Assembly (NCBI GenBank): GCA_024398075.1
Contig: JAKSJM010000013.1
Location: 1-53,220, forward strand
Direction: 5' to 3'
From: Bacteroidales bacterium
Lineage (GTDB): Bacteria > Bacteroidota > Bacteroidia > Bacteroidales > UBA932
DNA length: 53,220 nucleotides
Part shown: one piece after another, positions 38,023 to 45,652 of the stretch
How the letters are laid out: each line of letters begins with the position of its first letter
How positions within the stretch are numbered: the first letter of the stretch is position 1
Notes under the pieces: model-generated
What the model was told of the DNA's origin: nothing
Databases searched by the model: none
What the model saw: the letters and a program-made list of their open reading frames with translations, nothing else
Made by a program: the position numbers and the translations under genes

Positions 38023-39039
38023 TTATTCGTTCTCGATAATATGGGTGAGGAACGAAGTCATGTCCATGCCCGCAGTACGAACCATCTTAGGTACGAGCGA
38101 AGCACTTGTCATGCCTGGGATGGTGTTCACCTCCAGGAAGTAAAGACCATCAGCTGCGCTGATATAGTCGATTCTCACGATACCTGAGCAGCCGAGCTGA
38201 TGATAGATCTTCTTCGTAGTCTCCTGGATGAGGTCACGAAGTTCATCTGAGATATGAGCTGGGCAAATCTCCTGGCTATGGCCATTGTACTTGGCGTCAT
38301 AGTCGAAATAGTCATTTTCGGTGACGATCTCGATCACAGGAAGGGCGTTCACCTTGCCTGCCACTGCGTATGCAGCGCAGGTGAACTCACGTCCTACCAC
38401 GCCCTGCTCGATCAGTACCATTGGGCCTTCAGAGTACGCATAGCGGATAGCGTCTGCGAGGTCCTCAGCCCTCTTCACCTTGGTGATACCGAAGCTTGAT
38501 CCACCATTTGTAGGCTTCACAAACACCGGGAACTGGAGACGGCCCTCAACCTTCTTCGTGACAGCGTCGAGGTCTGCACCCTCGCGTACAAACACGTCAG
38601 GGGCACATTTTACGAAGTCCACGTCGCGAAGGTAGTTCTTGCATGAGTACTTGTCGAATGCCACTGTAGACACAAATGCGCTACATGAGCTGAATGGGAT
38701 GCCTAGCATCTCGAAATATCCCTGCAGAAGACCGTTCTCGCCTGGAGCGCCGTGCTGCATGATATAGACATAGTCAAACTTCACCTTTTCGCCGAGGACA
38801 TTGACAGAGCAGTCTGTCTTGTCGACCTCTGGTCTGGCGCCTTCTGGGAAGGTGACTCTCATGGCATCCTTCTTCTTGTATGCCACGAGCTGCCATTTGC
38901 CGAAACGTGCGAAGATCTCATACACGTCGTAGAGGTCTCCATCAATACGGGAGGCTGTGAACTCTCCACTGCGGCAAGCCACTTCCCACTCTGAGGAGTC
39001 GCTGCCATAAAATACCGCGATTGCGCTATACTTTGCCAT
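38023..39039 (-). CDS. ddl: D-alanine--D-alanine ligase
   Basis: A 338-residue ATP-grasp enzyme that joins two D-Ala residues for peptidoglycan precursors. ATP-grasp motifs are FPVFVKPTNGGSSFGITKV, the glycine-rich loop, EQGVVGREFTCAAY, and the Mg-binding segment IDYISAADGLYFLEVNTIPGMT. The N-terminal domain is typical, including IMQHGAPGENGLLQGYFEMLGIP. Its start ATG overlaps the pbp1A stop by one base, showing tight coupling of cell-wall genes. Confidence 0.95.
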   Translation of the reverse strand: MAKYSAIAVFYGSDSSEWEVACRSGEFTASRIDGDLYDVYEIFARFGKWQLVAYKKKDAMRVTFPEGARPEVDKTDCSVNVLGEKVKFDYVYIMQHGAPGENGLLQGYFEMLGIPFSSCSAFVSTVAFDKYSCKNYLRDVDFVKCAPDVFVREGADLDAVTKKVEGRLQFPVFVKPTNGGSSFGITKVKRAEDLADAIRYAYSEGPMVLIEQGVVGREFTCAAYAVAGKVNALPVIEIVTENDYFDYDAKYNGHSQEICPAHISDELRDLIQETTKKIYHQLGCSGIVRIDYISAADGLYFLEVNTIPGMTSASLVPKMVRTAGMDMTSFLTHIIENE

Positions 39040-41411
39040 TATTCGAAATAATAATCTTCTCTTTCCTCTTCGGTGATGGTGGTGTCATCTCCACCAGTGC
39101 AGCCGAAATCAAATCCTTCGCCCCTTGGAGCCATGAACATATCCATCTCGCTGACGCCCAATGTTCCATCCTTCAAGCACTTCTGCATCCAGATACCCCA
39201 AATAGGGAGGGCCGCAGCCGAACCCTGTCCGAGTGCGCCGGATGTAAAGTGGACATCCCTATCCTCAGCACCTACCCAAACGCCGGCAGTGATGGTAGGA
39301 GTGTAGCCGATGAACCACGCATCAGAGTTGCCATTCGTGGTACCCGTCTTGCCCGCGATCTGGCCCTTGAGACCATAAACAGTGCGGAGTCTGTTACCAG
39401 TACCGCCATCTACCACTCCACGCATCATGTTCACCATGATGAATGCTGTGCGTGCGCCAATGGTAACCTCCGAATGGGTCGCGAACTCAGAGATTTCATT
39501 GCCCTGATTATCCTCGATCCTGGTCACACACTTAGGCTGGATGTACGACCCTTCTGAAGGGAAGGTGTTATATGCTGCCACCATCTCGTAAACCGAGAGG
39601 TCCGCAGAGCCCACGCAGAGCGGGTGCACAGCCTCGATGTGGCTGCCGATACCCATCTGATGCATGAGTGCTACCAATGACTCTGGTCCGAGTCGCTTGA
39701 TAAGATATGCGGAAATGTTGTTTGAACTCATCTGAAGACCCCACTTGAGGGTCACTGTCTTGCCGATCCACTCTGCCTTGTCGGTGCTTCGTGGTGTCCA
39801 GCTGGTGCCATTTGGCAAGTCCACAGTCTGGTACTCGTTGAGGACCTTGGTGCAAGGAGTGAAACCATTGTCCGGAAGCATGGCCAATGTGTAGAGGAAT
39901 GGCTTCACGGTAGAACCGATCTGGCGCTTGCCCTGCCTTACATTGTCATACTTGAAGTATCTGTAGTTCGGACCACCCACATAGGCCTTGATATGGCCAG
40001 TACCTGGCTCAATGGCCATGAATCCCGCACGCATGATGCCCTTATAGTACTTGATGGAGTCATCTGGTGTCATGAGGGTATCAATGTACGACTCCTTGCC
40101 ATTCTTCCAAGCAAATACGCGCATCTTCGTAGGCTCCGAGAACTGCTTGAAGATCTCCGCATCTGACAGTCCAGCCTTCTTCTGAAGGCGATAGCGATCG
40201 CTCCACTTCCTCGCGTTCTTCATGAGGCGGTTTACCTGTGCCTGATCGACATCATTGGCAAATGGGGCATTCTTCAGATGCTTCATCTCACGGTCGAAGA
40301 GTTTCTGCTGACTGCTCATGTGCTGAGCCACAGCCTCCTCGGCATAGCGCTGCATCTTTTTGTTGATGGTGGTGTATATCTTCAAGCCATCTCTGTCGAG
40401 GTCGTAAGACTCGCCAGTGGTTTTCTTGTTCTTGTTAAGCCAGCCATAAAGGTCATCATTGACCCAGAGGGTAGAGTCTGCGCGATAGTCCTCCACGTAG
40501 GTGTAGTCGCTACGCTTAGGCTTGGTCGCATTCATGGTGCGGCGAAGCATGTCGCGGAAATAAGGCGCAAAGCCGGAATTATGGTCCTGGATATGATAGT
40601 CGGTGACAATAGGAAGAGCCCTCAGAGAGTCGCGGAAAGCGGCAGTCTTCACGCCTGCTGCCTTCGCCTCGTCATCGAAGTAACCAGCCTTCTCCATCTG
40701 GCCAAGCACGAAGTTTCTTCTGGTCAGAGCCTTGTCTGGGTTGAGAACAGGATTATAACGAGTAGGCTTATTCACCATACCCACAAGCATCGCGCTCTCC
40801 TCGATGGTGAGCTCAGAAGGGAGCTTTCCGAAGAAAGTCTCTGCAGCAGCCTTCACGCCATAGGCACCACTACCGAAGAAGATGGAGTTAAGATACATGT
40901 CCACGATCTCTTCCTTGGTATAGTTCTTCTCGATCTTAACCGCAGTCACCCACTCCTTGAGCTTGATCCAGACCATCTTGAGCTTGTTTGAGTTTTCAGG
41001 TCTTGGGTACAGAGTCTTCGCAAGCTGCTGGGTGATGGTAGAACCACCTCCCTGGCTGGAATTATTCATGAGCAATGTCTTCACGAACACTCGCGCGAGA
41101 CCTCTCATATCGATACCAGAGTGTCTGTAGAAGCGTACGTCCTCGGTAGCTACCGCCGCATGGACGAGATGAGGAGAGAGCTCCTCATAGCTCACGTAGG
41201 TTCTATTCTCGATGTGGAAGGTGCAGAGGAGCTCGCCATCCTCATCGAGCACCTGGGTCGCCAGCTTGTTATCCGGATTCTCCAGCTCCTCAAACGAAGG
41301 TATCTTCGCGAACACGCACACTGCCACCAGCAGCAGAGCCACCAGCGACATGCCACCGATGATGATTCCCCAGAACCACTTCAATATCTTCTTTTTCGTC
41401 GTATCTGTCAT
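39039..41411 (-). CDS. pbpA: Bifunctional penicillin-binding protein 1A
   Basis: A 790-residue class A PBP that polymerises and cross-links peptidoglycan. It has one N-terminal membrane anchor (residues 9-33). The GT51 domain carries VATEDVRFYRHSGIDMRGL and GGGSTITQQLAKTL. The transpeptidase domain has the catalytic Ser in GSTVKPFLYTLAM, SSNN as the S-x-N motif, and KTGTTNGNSDAWF as the KTG motif. The protein ends in an acidic tail rich in Asp and Glu. It starts a tight operon with ddl and prmC, driven by the promoter at 41473-41442. The symbol is a generic family name. Confidence 0.94.
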   Translation of the reverse strand: MTDTTKKKILKWFWGIIIGGMSLVALLLVAVCVFAKIPSFEELENPDNKLATQVLDEDGELLCTFHIENRTYVSYEELSPHLVHAAVATEDVRFYRHSGIDMRGLARVFVKTLLMNNSSQGGGSTITQQLAKTLYPRPENSNKLKMVWIKLKEWVTAVKIEKNYTKEEIVDMYLNSIFFGSGAYGVKAAAETFFGKLPSELTIEESAMLVGMVNKPTRYNPVLNPDKALTRRNFVLGQMEKAGYFDDEAKAAGVKTAAFRDSLRALPIVTDYHIQDHNSGFAPYFRDMLRRTMNATKPKRSDYTYVEDYRADSTLWVNDDLYGWLNKNKKTTGESYDLDRDGLKIYTTINKKMQRYAEEAVAQHMSSQQKLFDREMKHLKNAPFANDVDQAQVNRLMKNARKWSDRYRLQKKAGLSDAEIFKQFSEPTKMRVFAWKNGKESYIDTLMTPDDSIKYYKGIMRAGFMAIEPGTGHIKAYVGGPNYRYFKYDNVRQGKRQIGSTVKPFLYTLAMLPDNGFTPCTKVLNEYQTVDLPNGTSWTPRSTDKAEWIGKTVTLKWGLQMSSNNISAYLIKRLGPESLVALMHQMGIGSHIEAVHPLCVGSADLSVYEMVAAYNTFPSEGSYIQPKCVTRIEDNQGNEISEFATHSEVTIGARTAFIMVNMMRGVVDGGTGNRLRTVYGLKGQIAGKTGTTNGNSDAWFIGYTPTITAGVWVGAEDRDVHFTSGALGQGSAAALPIWGIWMQKCLKDGTLGVSEMDMFMAPRGEGFDFGCTGGDDTTITEEEREDYYFE

Positions 41412-41441
41412 AACTTTATTCCAGCTTTTATACCGAATCTA

Positions 41442-41473
41442 CAAAAATATAAATAATTCACTGCAATTGCAAA
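41442..41473 (-). promoter_or_regulatory. Promoter of the pbp1A-ddl-prmC operon
   Basis: On minus: TTTG at 41473-41470, 20 bp spacing, TATTTTTG at 41449-41442. It begins 22 bp beyond the first 51-bp repeat unit, so the repeat array lies immediately upstream of this promoter. Confidence 0.7.
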
Positions 41474-41495
41474 GTTCGTGCGCATAATGCGCCCG

Positions 41496-41931
41496 GTGAG
41501 CAGACAGGGCCCCGCCACTCAACAGAGGTTGCCGGAAGTGCCCGCGGTGAGTGGAGAGGGCCGCCACGCTCACCGGAAGGGTGCGAAGGGACGCTGCGTG
41601 AGCGAGGGAGGCGCTGACGCTCACCAGCGCGGGCCGGAAGTGCTCGCGGTGAGTAGAAGTAGCATCCACGCTCACCAGCGCGGGCCGGAAGTGCCCGCGG
41701 TGAGTAGAAGTAGCATCCACGCTCACCAGCGCGGGCCGAAAGTGCCCGCGGTGAGTGGAGAGGGCCGCCGCTGCTCACCGGAAGGGTGCGAAGGGACGCT
41801 GCGTGAGCGAGGGAGGCGCTGACGCTCACCAGCGCGGGCCGGAAGTGCTCGCGGTGAGTAGAAGTAGCATCCACGCTCACCAGCGCGGGCCGGAAGTGCC
41901 CGCGGTGAGTGGAGAGGGCCGCCACGCTCAC
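41496..41931 (+). repeat. 51-bp REP-like repeat array, 3' side of the RAYT gene (nine units)
   Basis: GTGAG(T/C) recurs at 41496, 41547, 41598, 41649, 41700, 41751, 41803, 41854 and 41905, a period of 51 bp with one 52. In each unit GTGAGY is followed 15 bases later by RCTCAC. Most unit junctions read as a 34-nt imperfect palindrome: CTCACC, bulge AGC, GCGGGC, a 7-nt loop, GCCCGC, GGTGAG (41671-41704 is perfect). Five junctions here keep this fold: two carry GCTCGC, which still pairs by wobble, and one has a changed loop. Others (41569-41602, 41773-41807) keep only the outer arms. The block 41598-41699 is repeated exactly at 41803-41904. The sequence is very GC-rich and does not look coding. 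Confidence 0.92.
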
Positions 41932-42917
41932 CGGCGCGTCAGCGCTTTCAGCGGGAACAGCTCGCTCACCTGCCTCTCCGACATCTTGAGAATCATGCGG
42001 ACTTGAGCATTGGACGCATGATAATCACCATGTAGGATTCTCGCCACCTGCAGCTTCCCCTCCGGCGGCAGCAACGATGGCTGCTTCACATTGAAGTCCC
42101 TCAAACTCAGCATCCTCGCCACCTGGTACATCTCCTCTCGGCCGATGACATTGGTATCACCAAACCTTTTCGCGCTCTCGCTGTATGCCTCAAAGTTCCT
42201 TGTGATGGCGTCAAGATAGTTGTGGGCGTTTCGGAACATGCCCTCGCCCAGCGCCACATCCACGAAGCTCGCAGGCAGAATCATTCCATCCAGAATTTCA
42301 TATGAATCAGGCATCATCACCACCCTGCGGCAACTGAGGCGCCTTCGCTCATTGAAACTGATTTGGTTATATTTCTCACCATGCACCAGCTTAGCCAATG
42401 GGTTAAAATACACACACGAACTAGACCATGGGTAAGAGAAGGGAAGGAAGTTTCTGTTCGAGACAAAACCATTTCGATTAATATAAGCGATCTCATTTCT
42501 CATCATCTCCAAGTCTGTAATCGGAATGGGATCATCACAACGTAACCCCCTGAGATCCACAAACCTACCCTGACGCTCAAAGTACTTCTGTTGCCTGTAG
42601 GCATACGCCTTCAAGAAGGCAAAGCACTTCTCACGGATGCACTGCAGCAGCAGGTGGAGGTGGTCCTCCATGACCGAGAAGGTCACCACCTTAATCCCCA
42701 CTTCGGCAGCGGTGATGGCTACATTGCTCACCGCAAAGGCGTAGTCCTCCTCGGTGACATTTAGAATTTCGGTCAATGTTCCCGGCGTGCACACATGCCA
42801 GAAAGGACCATCTTCGATTTGACTATTCTGAAAGAGAAAGCTGCAGCTGTTCTCCGCTTCGCTGAAACTGACAGCGTCGGACGAGATCTCGCCCCATTTA
42901 AAATTTGCCATTTCCAT
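41928..42917 (-). CDS. RAYT-like HUH/Y1 transposase
   Basis: A 329-residue protein related to REP-associated tyrosine transposases and the IS200/IS605 Y1 family. The HUH motif is His86-Leu87-His88 in SVMEDHLHLLLQ. The tyrosine helix YINRNGFV places Tyr145 where these enzymes have Y-I-x-x-N-P-V, though Pro is Gly here. SYPWSS follows, equivalent to the family YPWSS. A C-terminal extension of about 150 residues ends in an HTH-like segment (QVARILHGDYHASNAQVRMI). The start is ATG 42917 (ATG 42911 also possible); the open frame to 42923 begins with GTG. The stop TGA lies in the GGTGAG arm of the flanking repeat. REP-type arrays flank both ends. Confidence 0.82.
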   Translation of the reverse strand: MEMANFKWGEISSDAVSFSEAENSCSFLFQNSQIEDGPFWHVCTPGTLTEILNVTEEDYAFAVSNVAITAAEVGIKVVTFSVMEDHLHLLLQCIREKCFAFLKAYAYRQQKYFERQGRFVDLRGLRCDDPIPITDLEMMRNEIAYINRNGFVSNRNFLPFSYPWSSSCVYFNPLAKLVHGEKYNQISFNERRRLSCRRVVMMPDSYEILDGMILPASFVDVALGEGMFRNAHNYLDAITRNFEAYSESAKRFGDTNVIGREEMYQVARMLSLRDFNVKQPSLLPPEGKLQVARILHGDYHASNAQVRMILKMSERQVSELFPLKALTRR

Positions 42918-42955
42918 CAACACATTTCCCTACGCCACCGTGGCAATAGACATCA

Positions 42956-42986
42956 CAAATATCAAAAACCGCGATGGAATTTCAAA
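42956..42986 (-). promoter_or_regulatory. Probable promoter of the RAYT-like gene
   Basis: On minus: TTTG at 42986-42983, 19 bp spacing, GATATTTG at 42963-42956 (one mismatch to TAnnTTTG), about 39 bp before ATG 42917. It lies between the gene and the three-unit repeat block. Confidence 0.5.
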
Positions 42987-43011
42987 GCCTTTCGGCCAAT
43001 TTTTTCGCGCG

Positions 43012-43140
43012 GTGAGTGGAGAGGGCATCATCACTCACCAGAGGGGTGCGAAGGGGCGGTTCGTGAGCGAGGGAGGCGCTTACGCTCACCAGCGCGGGCC
43101 CCAAGTGCCCGCGGTGAGTGGAGAGGGCCGCGCTGGTCAC
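43012..43140 (+). repeat. 51-bp REP-like repeat array, 5' side of the RAYT gene (three units)
   Basis: GTGAG at 43012, 43063 and 43114 with 51-bp spacing, in the same orientation as the larger array. The junction 43084-43119 keeps the full hairpin arms (CTCACC, AGC, GCGGGC, GCCCGC, GGTGAG) while its loop differs from the other copies. The first junction keeps only the outer arms, and the last unit decays (GGTCAC). The rest of 42924-43315 holds the RAYT and topA promoters and AT-rich spacer. Confidence 0.9.
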
Positions 43141-43220
43141 GGGAAAAAGAGTGAAATTTCCATTATATAATAATGGGTATATCCAGGCGGGAAAAAGGGC
43201 CTTAGAAAGTGCTGCGAAAA

Positions 43221-43253
43221 TTTGGAATCTTCAGTCTTTTGTGGCAATCTTTG
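43221..43253 (+). promoter_or_regulatory. Probable promoter of topA
   Basis: TTTG at 43221-43224, 21 bp spacing, AATCTTTG at 43246-43253 (one mismatch), 63 bp before ATG 43316. Confidence 0.5.
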
Positions 43254-43315
43254 CATTATGAATCGACGGTTTGGGCCCGACGACAAGTAGGGACAGACCA
43301 CATTAACAGAAAGAT

Positions 43316-45652
43316 ATGGAGGGAACAAAAAGCAGCGCAAACGCAGCAAAGAATCTGGTGATTGTGGAGTCTCCTGGAAAGATCCACACCATCCAGAAAG
43401 TGCTTGGAAATGACTATTTGGTAATGGCCAGCTATGGTCATATACGCGACTTAGACGAGAAAAAACTTGGAATCGACATCGAGGCAGGATTCAAGCCTGA
43501 CTATCAGGTACCAGCCGACAAGATAAAGAGAGTGGCCGAACTGAAGAAGGCCGCACAGAAGGCTCAGACCGTATGGCTGGCATCCGATGATGACCGCGAG
43601 GGAGAGGCCATCTCTTGGCATCTCTTTGAGACACTGGGACTAGACCCAGCGAAGACAAAGAGAATCGCATTCCACGAGATCACAAAGGACGCCATACTCA
43701 AGGCCATTGAGAATCCTAGAGACATCGACATGAACCTCGTGAACGCCCAGCAGGCGCGTCGCGTGCTCGACCGTCTCGTCGGCTTCGAGCTCTCGCCCGT
43801 GCTCTGGAGAAAGGTACAGCCTAAGCTCTCAGCCGGCCGAGTTCAGTCTGTCGCGCTCCGTCTCATCGTAGACAGGGAAAAGGAGATCATGGAGTTCGAG
43901 GGCAAGCCATATTATAAAGTGGATGGCGTCTTCCATCCAGAAGGTTCGCCAGCAGCGACTAAGACAAAGGGAACCCTCGACACCAAGTTCGAGGATGGAG
44001 AAAGCGCACGTAAGTTCCTGGAGGACAGCGCTGACGCCACATTCACTGTCGATAGCATTGAGACAAAGGAAGGCACTCGCTTCCCTGCCGCGCCTTTCAC
44101 CACCTCCACTCTCCAGCAGGAAGCAGGCCGCAAGCTTCACTTCCCTGTGGTGACCACCATGCGCGTGGCTCAGGCGCTCTACGAGCGAGGACTCATCACA
44201 TACATGCGTACTGACTCGACAAACCTGTCAGCATTGGCCATCGGCACCGCAAAGAAATACATTGTGGAGAATTTCGGCGAGAACTACCACCACGCCAGAC
44301 AGTTCAAGACGAAGTCGAAGGGAGCACAGGAGGCCCATGAGGCCATCCGCCCTACCTTCATCGAGACCACTGCCATAGAAGGAACGGCACAGGAGCAGAA
44401 GCTCTACAGCCTCATCTGGAAGAGGACCGTGGCCTCACAGATGGAGGAGGCGCGCGTGCTGAACACCAGCGTCAAGGTGGCATCCGACAAGCGTAGCGAG
44501 AAGTTCAACCTCCAGTCGTCACAGGTAATCTTCGACGGCTTCCTCAAGGTATACATGGAAGGCACCGACGACGAGGTGGAAGAGGGCGAGATCACTCTCC
44601 CAGAGATGCATGTGGGAGACATCATGAACAGGAAAACCATCAGCGCAGAGTGCAAGTTCACGCAGGCACCGGCGCGCTACTCTCAGCCTGCACTCGTGAA
44701 GAAACTCGAGGAGCTCGGCATCGGCCGTCCATCCACCTATGGTCCGACCGTGCAGACACTCACCACAGGTAGAGGATATGTCGCTACGGGAGACAAGGAG
44801 GGCAGAAAGATAGACGTCAAGAACTACCTCCTCAAGGGCAGCGACATCAGCGAAAGCGTAAAGGCGGAAACGATTGGTGCTGAGAAGGGTAAGCTCCTTC
44901 CACAGGAGATCGGAATGATTGTTACCGACTATCTCGTAGCGAACTTCCACGACATCCTTGACTACAATTTCACAGCGGATGTCGAGAAGGATTTCGACCA
45001 GATAGCAGAGGGTGAAAAGGTATGGAACGGAGTCATTTCAGAGTTCTACTCTCCTTTCCACGCCAAGGTCAAGGAAGCCCTCGAAGACAGGAATTTCAGC
45101 AAGGTCACACGCGAGATCGGCGTGGATCCTGCAGACGGACAGATGATCATCGCGAAGTTCGGAGCCTTCGGTCCATTCGTCCAGAAGGGAGACGGAGAGA
45201 ACAAGCAGTACGCGAGCCTAGCGAAGGGGCAGCTCATCGAGAGCATAACCCTCGAAGACGCGCTCAAGCTCTTCCAGCTGCCACGTCGCGTCGGCGAAGT
45301 GGACGGTATCGAGGTCATCGCGCTCAAGGGCAAGTACGGTCCATACCTGAAGTATGGCGAGAAGAACGTGAAGCTTCCTAAGGGCAATGATCCCCTCAAC
45401 ATCACCATCGAGGAGTGCGCCGCCCTCATCAAGGAGGCGCAGAACGCGACCCCTGCCAGCACAGTGCTCGCTGAATTTGGCGACATCCAGGTGATCAAGG
45501 GCATGTATGGACCATACATCAAGTGTAATGGATCGAACTACAAGATAGCCAAAGGAACCGACCCAAGCACCCTAACAGAAGAGGCTTGCAGGGCAATTAT
45601 TGACAATTCGGAACCTACTGCGAAAGGAAAAAGGCGTTTTAAGAGGAAATAA
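43316..45652 (+). CDS. topA: DNA topoisomerase I (type IA)
   Basis: A 778-residue enzyme that relaxes negative supercoils through a transient 5'-phosphotyrosine bond. The TOPRIM start is KNLVIVESPGKIHTIQKVLG, with acidic residues in ASDDDREGEAISWHL. The catalytic tyrosine is Tyr296 in GLITYMRTDSTNLS. The C-terminal part has topoisomerase C-terminal repeats without zinc-finger cysteine pairs (KFGAFGPFVQKG, GKYGPYLKYGEKNV, GMYGPYIKCNGSNYKI), as in other Bacteroidota. It ends with a basic tail KGKRRFKRK. It is transcribed away from the RAYT gene and repeat array. Confidence 0.96.
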   Translation: MEGTKSSANAAKNLVIVESPGKIHTIQKVLGNDYLVMASYGHIRDLDEKKLGIDIEAGFKPDYQVPADKIKRVAELKKAAQKAQTVWLASDDDREGEAISWHLFETLGLDPAKTKRIAFHEITKDAILKAIENPRDIDMNLVNAQQARRVLDRLVGFELSPVLWRKVQPKLSAGRVQSVALRLIVDREKEIMEFEGKPYYKVDGVFHPEGSPAATKTKGTLDTKFEDGESARKFLEDSADATFTVDSIETKEGTRFPAAPFTTSTLQQEAGRKLHFPVVTTMRVAQALYERGLITYMRTDSTNLSALAIGTAKKYIVENFGENYHHARQFKTKSKGAQEAHEAIRPTFIETTAIEGTAQEQKLYSLIWKRTVASQMEEARVLNTSVKVASDKRSEKFNLQSSQVIFDGFLKVYMEGTDDEVEEGEITLPEMHVGDIMNRKTISAECKFTQAPARYSQPALVKKLEELGIGRPSTYGPTVQTLTTGRGYVATGDKEGRKIDVKNYLLKGSDISESVKAETIGAEKGKLLPQEIGMIVTDYLVANFHDILDYNFTADVEKDFDQIAEGEKVWNGVISEFYSPFHAKVKEALEDRNFSKVTREIGVDPADGQMIIAKFGAFGPFVQKGDGENKQYASLAKGQLIESITLEDALKLFQLPRRVGEVDGIEVIALKGKYGPYLKYGEKNVKLPKGNDPLNITIEECAALIKEAQNATPASTVLAEFGDIQVIKGMYGPYIKCNGSNYKIAKGTDPSTLTEEACRAIIDNSEPTAKGKRRFKRK

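Follow-up and report, generated by a model that had tools for sequence, protein, structure and literature searches.

The window, a stretch of 53,220 nucleotides from a Bacteroidales genome, contains a transposase-like gene set between two arrays of short palindromic repeats. The gene and its arrays lie between two divergent genes that we take, from their sequences, to encode a penicillin-binding protein/transglycosylase (PBP) and topoisomerase I (topA). The features of the locus are as follows.

39039..41411, minus strand: PBP-like flanking gene (presumed), one side of the empty-site test
41448..43213, unstranded: approximate extent of the insertion, junctions set by eye from conserved blocks
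41477..41494, unstranded: small palindrome bounding the 3' array on its outer side (-6.1 kcal/mol, z -2.31)
41492..41938, unstranded: 3'-side array, nine head-to-tail units of 51 bp (one of 52)
41928..42923, minus strand: transposase-like gene, RAYT-derived HUH/Y1 protein of 331 aa counted from GTG
43008..43145, unstranded: 5'-side array, three more units in the same orientation as on the 3' side
43160..43176, unstranded: small palindrome CCATTAT-ATA-ATAATGG bounding the 5' array on its outer side (-3.7 kcal/mol, z -2.75)
43217..43255, plus strand: topA upstream block AAAATTTGG..TTTGTGG..CTTTGCA, found by eye
43316..45652, plus strand: topA-like flanking gene (presumed), other side of the empty-site test

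The protein carries an HxH motif (H86/H88) and a conserved tyrosine (Y145; numbering from the ATG of 42917), followed by what appears to be a C-terminal domain starting near residue 180. The original prediction of an HUH/Y1 protein is borne out by the HxH motif, together with a weak Y1_Tnp match (E 0.019). The protein falls below every curated family cut-off tried, including those of the REP-associated model REP_Tyr_transpos (NCBIfam NF047646; 14.2-14.3 bits, cut-off 80) and the IS200/IS605 model NF033573 (13.7 bits, cut-off 55).

The TGA stop of the gene falls within the first palindrome arm (GGTGAG). Units of the 3'-side array, whose palindrome GGTGAG..CTCACC is usually 29 bp long, start at 41492, 41543, 41594, 41645, 41696, 41747, 41799, 41850 and 41901. 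Seven of the spacings are 51 bp and one is 52 bp, because the palindrome of one unit is 30 bp rather than 29. On the 5' side units start at 43008, 43059 (read by eye) and 43110. Tandem Repeats Finder independently reports a period of 51 (8 copies, score 332) as well as a period of 205 (score 742). The unit positions and the program thus agree with the earlier count of twelve units, nine 3' and three 5' of the gene, at 51 bp with a single 52.

To either side of the gene the units run as direct repeats, not as the inverted REP pairs of a REPIN, and other loci of the family likewise lack inverted REP-pair units as judged by eye. Units of a single array also look by eye to be pieced together mosaic-fashion from a small number of variants, and in some arrays two kinds of unit alternate. 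As single-stranded DNA the window hairpins are weak (-4.1 to -7.7 kcal/mol), two of three being not clearly below shuffled sequences. The small palindromes at the outer array ends could be terminal hairpins or element ends. A search of positions 41300-43400 against Rfam gave no match up to E 0.5.

A RAYT-derived protein family

A hidden Markov model grown from the window protein matched all 102 genus loci given, namely three in the window's own genome and 99 among the matches listed in other genomes of the genus. Adding 80 named loci (the best 80 of 162) gave 182 loci, from which 168 non-redundant ones (<95% identity) were kept and 14 dropped. The HxH motif and one tyrosine are invariant in all 165 members long enough to align (three of the 168 were left out), and both are present in 100 of 102 loci when truncated members are included. 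At the YxxNP motif, asparagine is kept in 96% of the 165 members and proline in only 21%, compared with proline in 18 of 18 outside relatives. The L[FW] stretch is mostly lost in the family.

Outside the family, the closest proteins are short Y1 proteins of RAYT type, for the most part 180-250 aa long, with YxxNP and mostly with [WFY]SS stretches. Relative to these, the family appears to add a C-terminal domain of roughly 130-150 residues. Its pattern LA..LH..Y.A.N.QI.R.L looks helix-turn-helix (HTH)-like by eye, and the HTH families of Pfam match it weakly (HTH_29, 0.016; HTH_23, 0.03; HTH_IclR, 0.16), each in one of 36 members. The NCBIfam REP-associated tyrosine transposase model matches 21 of 36 members (E up to 1; best E 7.6e-11), and the IS200 model matches fewer (8 of 36) and less well. 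The kinship to short RAYT-type proteins and the difference between the two models uphold the earlier proposal of a REP/RAYT-like pairing in Bacteroidota. The family is under purifying selection, with dN/dS of about 0.1 (0.064-0.148 in 13 of 14 close pairs, the remaining pair being saturated).

Within the genus, family matches occur in 32 of 36 other genomes, at 1-10 each, and 24 genomes of other families of the order yielded none. Among 395 genomes of the class, full-length matches are confined to the window's own genome; among 295 genomes of the order, they are confined to this genome and one more of the genus. The other matching genomes number 133 in the class survey (best E 8.6e-20) and 55 in the order survey (best E 1.3e-10), and none of the matches listed in them extends past model position 198 of 305 (class) or 181 of 315 (order). 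These end points bear out the C-terminal extension of about 150 residues noted earlier. Where kinship is known, full-length members thus appear to be found only in the window's genus, a restriction that rests on these three surveys (genus and order, class, order). The named loci are Bacteroidales or Bacteroidia metagenome-assembled genomes, one titled Rikenellaceae, largely from ruminant guts; the hosts overall are mostly gut and rumen Bacteroidales. No family match was found in plasmids, phages or viral contigs.

The window's own genome holds three members, in the window and on contigs C29 and C65, each set in a separate array with a period of 51 or 102 bp; the two paralogues are 47% and 35% identical to the window protein. 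This count, together with the 1-10 matches per matching genome of the genus, contradicts the expectation of a single-copy RAYT. In one genus genome, listed as 100% complete, a full-length member is the sole match (L277, G477:C20:15799-16689); it lies in long 52-bp arrays whose units start with GGAC and end with GTCC.

Array pitch and palindromes

We scanned 900 bp on each side of the gene at 168 loci for lags of 25-120. The lag of 51 passes in 76 loci, 52 in 28, 102 in 30 and 104 in 11, and lags other than 50-53 and their doubles pass in at most nine. In 262 far-flank segments, over 1.4 kb distant, six loci pass at 51 and none at 52. Taking the best lag of each locus, 51 leads in 62, 52 in 21, 50 in three, 53 in one, 102 in seven and 104 in one, so that the best flank period is 50-53 bp or its double in 95 of 168 loci; a repeat signal is lacking in 50, and in the other 23 a different lag is best. 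An independent count of spacings between palindrome centres in 330 flanks gave 51 (82 cases), 52 (34) and 50 (11), with nine for the next. Even in the 50 loci lacking a lag signal, 51 is the commonest centre spacing (eight cases), and 116 of 132 pairs of similar-arm palindromes 25-97 bp apart are spaced at 50-54 bp. As a control, none of 27 short Y1/RAYT loci of other genera, drawn from the class and order surveys, shows 50-53.

Members of like pitch class group together on a protein tree built from the 99 members for which pitch was called: 18 changes are needed, compared to 26.0 on shuffling (none of 200 as low). The 71 rows with a pitch of 51 are scattered across the tree; of the 22 rows with 52, 10 fall in one 14-row clade. 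Among the exceptional spacings there is no signal for helical multiples (n=14, p about 0.87 at 10.4). One full-length member has long 74-bp arrays on both sides (L056, G016:C4:195777-200607) and is an exception.

Plain tandem-repeat growth by slippage or unequal crossing-over, with the 51-bp unit a historical accident inherited with the gene, would fit the mosaic units and the alternating unit types, which are as recombination would give. However, arrays of unrelated sequence hold the same pitch even where direct-repeat identity has been lost, and the pitch persists in dispersed arrays that lack the gene (see below). Moreover, stems are more conserved (0.94) than loops (0.82) and spacers (0.77) in 19 arrays, a comparison partly biased by the choice of stems. 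We regard this explanation as very unlikely. The near-constant spacing over differing palindromes suggests a role for the spacing as such in the working of these elements.

A palindromic repeat family of its own flanks the gene in the window and both paralogues in the same genome. The palindrome reads GGTGAG..CTCACC in the window, GGTGC[AG]..[CT]GCACC at C29 and CGTGCGCA..TGCGCACG at C65. At C29, one stem position switches between A-T and G-C from unit to unit, which by eye is a compensatory change. We compared arms across the 66 loci with usable ones by asking for a common 6-mer. Such a 6-mer is shared by 15 of 23 pairs at 60-95% protein identity, 15 of 58 at 50-60%, 12 of 91 at 45-50%, and 51 of 987 below 30%. 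For identities of 50% and above combined, a 6-mer is common to the arms in 30 of 81 pairs, compared to a shuffled mean of 6.1 (none of 1000 shuffles as high). At 45-50% identity, 56 of 1000 shuffles are as high, so the signal fades there. Palindrome arms therefore differ between paralogues but tend to follow protein relatedness.

Several relatives of the window protein at 50-52% identity (L110, L111, L114 and L115) retain the GTGAG arm. The palindromes of L109, which is the window's sister on the tree (92/95), and of L113 look different and count against strict co-inheritance; both loci are outside the 66-locus arm set. No foot tetranucleotide is common to 86 array sides, and the GTAG/CGTC foot is missing. 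In one study, GTAG is described as essential for E. coli TnpA-REP and partly dispensable in two other systems (PMC8266576). Stem mismatches show no strand bias (GT 84 versus AC 78, p 0.69), so that the comparison of G.T with A.C mismatches gives no sign of a strand-specific hairpin.

Probable gain of the window copy and dispersal of palindromes

The region between the PBP and topA genes provides an empty-site test. We found topA in 60 of 61 genomes of the genus and took 30 loci, 29 besides that of the window; 28 of these 29 have both genes in range and one is truncated. In all 28 comparable relatives the gap from the PBP start to the topA start is 76-186 bp (median 109), compared to 1,904 bp in the window. 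None of the 29 other topA loci has a family open reading frame or a lag signal of 48-55 bp upstream of topA, and the flanks covered for loci L010-L188 nowhere contain the PBP and topA pair. The block at 43217..43255 resembles one kept in many relatives and was therefore placed outside the insertion; we take it to be probably the topA promoter. The simplest reading of this comparison is that the window copy was probably gained, gene and array having entered between the two divergent genes.

Flanks were also compared between named loci, some of which have short flanks. Among 29 pairs of at least 75% identity, both flanks are common in 13, one in 12 and none in four. Extending this to all 117 named pairs of at least 55% identity, both are common in 17, one in 27 and none in 73. 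The 25 of 29 close pairs with at least one common flank indicate mostly vertical descent. Close relatives mostly keep their site and distant ones mostly do not, a pattern suggestive of copies that are inherited vertically for long and relocate slowly.

A gain at an empty site, together with the HUH/Y1 motif, is what would be expected of an ordinary mobile element of IS200/IS605 type whose ends fall by chance within a tandem repeat. The best PDB sequence matches, all weak, are likewise to chains named transposase, covering the HUH patch only; we take these chains to be IS200/IS605 enzymes. However, the own genome (82% complete) contains no near-identical copy, its paralogues being as diverged as given above, and the common flanks of close pairs, the dN/dS of about 0.1 and the weaker and rarer matches to the IS200 model than to the REP model all speak against such an element, which we consider extremely improbable.

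Dispersal was assessed for four palindromes, of which those of C65 (own genome, G000) and L108 (genome G016) are dispersed and those of the window and C29 are not so beyond control level. The C65 palindrome occurs at 37 places on 10 contigs, and a reversed-pattern control at none. Eleven of these places are on C65, eight on C1 (in similar units) and 18 on eight further contigs, often at the contig's end. Every copy has a middle of 13 nt, although the pattern allowed 10-16. Seven units of 51 bp, two being imperfect, form an array between open reading frames on contig C50, and the stretches examined near this array contain no family open reading frame.

In G016 (98% complete), the L108 palindrome is found at seven places at five sites (control, none), and its middle is always 9 nt with 7-11 allowed. 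Four of these sites are separate from the gene: one carries four units and another three, spaced at exactly 52 bp, and the remaining two carry a single unit. The four dispersed copies (L271, L272, L273 and L274) all have a 47-base palindromic end module, with 0, 1, 2 and 0 mismatches, respectively. This module is absent from the 4 kb covered at the transposase locus of G016.

The original prediction had asked for dispersed copies of the hairpin to be sought in the complete genome and in relatives, and the search of the own genome, made in the 82%-complete assembly, did not find them: BLAST and two patterns gave none beyond control level. BLAST returned one 22-bp match at E 5.76 besides three local ones. 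The looser pattern recovers seven of the 12 window units, so diverged copies could be missed. The C29 palindrome occurs at seven scattered places in the same 82%-complete genome, compared to five control places. A further copy at the end of C37 is an exact repeat of a C29 unit and is probably C29's own array split by assembly. C65-type palindromes also lie at contig ends on C27, C33, C48, C49 and C52 (L198, L199, L200, L201, L202 and L204). On C33, C48, C49 and C52 the arrays lie next to a repeated composite bounded by inverted ends of its own, GGCGAATGGGC / GCCCATTCGCC, a BIME-like higher-order repeat at which the assembly may break.

A domesticated double-stranded DNA binder would explain several of these features. 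Its HTH-like C-terminal domain would bind the palindromes as a dimer, with half-sites about two helical turns apart, and the array would serve as an operator or nucleoid-type platform with repeats on one helix face, transposition being rare or past. The exact middle length of dispersed copies, a pitch of 51-52 bp near five helical turns, stem mismatches free of strand bias, the weakness of the window hairpins as single strands, the strong purifying selection and the HTH-like pattern are all consistent with this. However, the matches to HTH families are weak and single, and the exceptional spacings fall off helical multiples. In addition, the nuclease residues are fully kept, though a pure binder would not need them, and dispersed phased arrays exist. 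We consider this alternative unlikely.

Proposed mechanism and relation to known systems

We favour, with moderate confidence, a divergent system of REP/RAYT type (REPtron), in which a RAYT-descended HUH/Y1 protein with an added C-terminal domain is paired with its own palindrome. The absence of the NP motif, the scores below the curated cut-off and the lack of a GTAG foot indicate a divergent RAYT-derived lineage rather than a standard RAYT. A palindrome for each protein, catalytic residues under selection, some dispersal and rare moves point to a REP/RAYT-like way of working. Each protein would recognise its own palindrome, where the HxH motif and the tyrosine would cut and rejoin DNA through single-stranded intermediates, with some part presumably played by the C-terminal domain. 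The protein would thereby spread its palindromes nearby and, in the case of some paralogues, to other sites in the form of short phased arrays. The near-constant pitch of 51 bp would be set by the protein, e.g. by an active complex holding two neighbouring palindromes at a fixed distance. Besides such a complex, a transposition unit and phasing on double-stranded DNA are candidate sources of the pitch. Counting against the REP/RAYT reading are the undispersed window and C29 palindromes, the differing palindrome of L109, the missing foot and strand bias, the weak hairpins and the 50 of 168 loci that lack a repeat signal.

Whether this amounts to an undescribed class of RAYT-derived systems is a question on which we stand slightly short of even. 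The pitch would then be a conserved recognition feature, with a complex that measures about 51 bp; palindromes would diversify with each paralogue, giving several mutually orthogonal systems per genome, and phased mini-arrays would spread instead of single REPs or inverted REPINs.

The nearest known system, as described in PMC6006769, is class 2 of TnpA-REP/RAYT, specifically the Bacteroidetes subclass 2.6, equivalent to RAYT group 5. Both share an HUH/Y1 core, a conserved YxxN, a WSS-like stretch, a Bacteroidota host, flanking palindromes without GT[AG]G and a separate repeat family for each gene (PMC6006769). However, members of subclass 2.6 are tabulated at 179 aa, compared to about 330 aa with an extra C-terminal domain here, and the present family mostly has YxxN without P and several divergent paralogues per genome (PMC6006769). 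A near-constant pitch is not reported for that subclass, the words "tandem" and "array" occurring 0 times in the main text (PMC6006769). The earlier suggestion of an undescribed lineage thus stands in part: the C-terminal domain gained by the family and a pitch held constant between arrays of unrelated sequence support it, but Bacteroidota relatives among the RAYTs are already known (PMC6006769).

Ordered tandem REP/REPIN arrays are known from Pseudomonas fluorescens SBW25 (PMC3116915). As in our family, a cluster lies beside each RAYT gene and differs between RAYTs (PMC3116915). In SBW25, however, the spacings alternate between 112 and 72 bp, or, at two places, GI repeats follow one another at even distances, and units are typically REP doublets (REPINs), in contrast to the head-to-tail palindromes at about 51 bp seen here at many loci with unrelated sequences (PMC3116915). 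BIMEs and GTAG/CGTC-tagged REPs are similarly clustered palindromes dispersed between genes, some in tandem (PMC3733652, PMC2817692). BIMEs alternate in orientation and carry GTAG or CGTC tags, unlike the present units, and head-tail dimers are absent, under-represented or negligible in most (PMC3733652, PMC2817692).

Searches of the open-licence PMC literature yielded no report of one pitch held across the unrelated arrays of a whole family, and the fixed array pitch thus appears to be the new feature. In nearly a hundred divergent loci (95 of 168) the palindrome changes and the pitch stays, which bears on how RAYTs recognise and spread their repeats and on why they have been kept for so long. 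Two questions become directly testable, namely which feature of the protein fixes the spacing and how specificity shifts at constant spacing. If the pairs prove orthogonal, they would constitute a set of candidate DNA-nicking proteins with cognate sites.

A C-terminal extension is also found in RAYT group 1 (subclass 2.1) and TIRYT, where it is HTH-like in that subclass; no REP-like repeats were found alongside those genes, unlike here (PMC6006769). In another genus of the same taxonomic family as the window's, a 275-codon open frame (G669:C1:1714360-1714779) matches model positions 29-170 only and is possibly an intermediate form. In one member (L080, G036:C10:18878-23417), the family domain corresponds to residues 444-721 of a 728-codon open frame, which could be a fusion or merely a long open frame.
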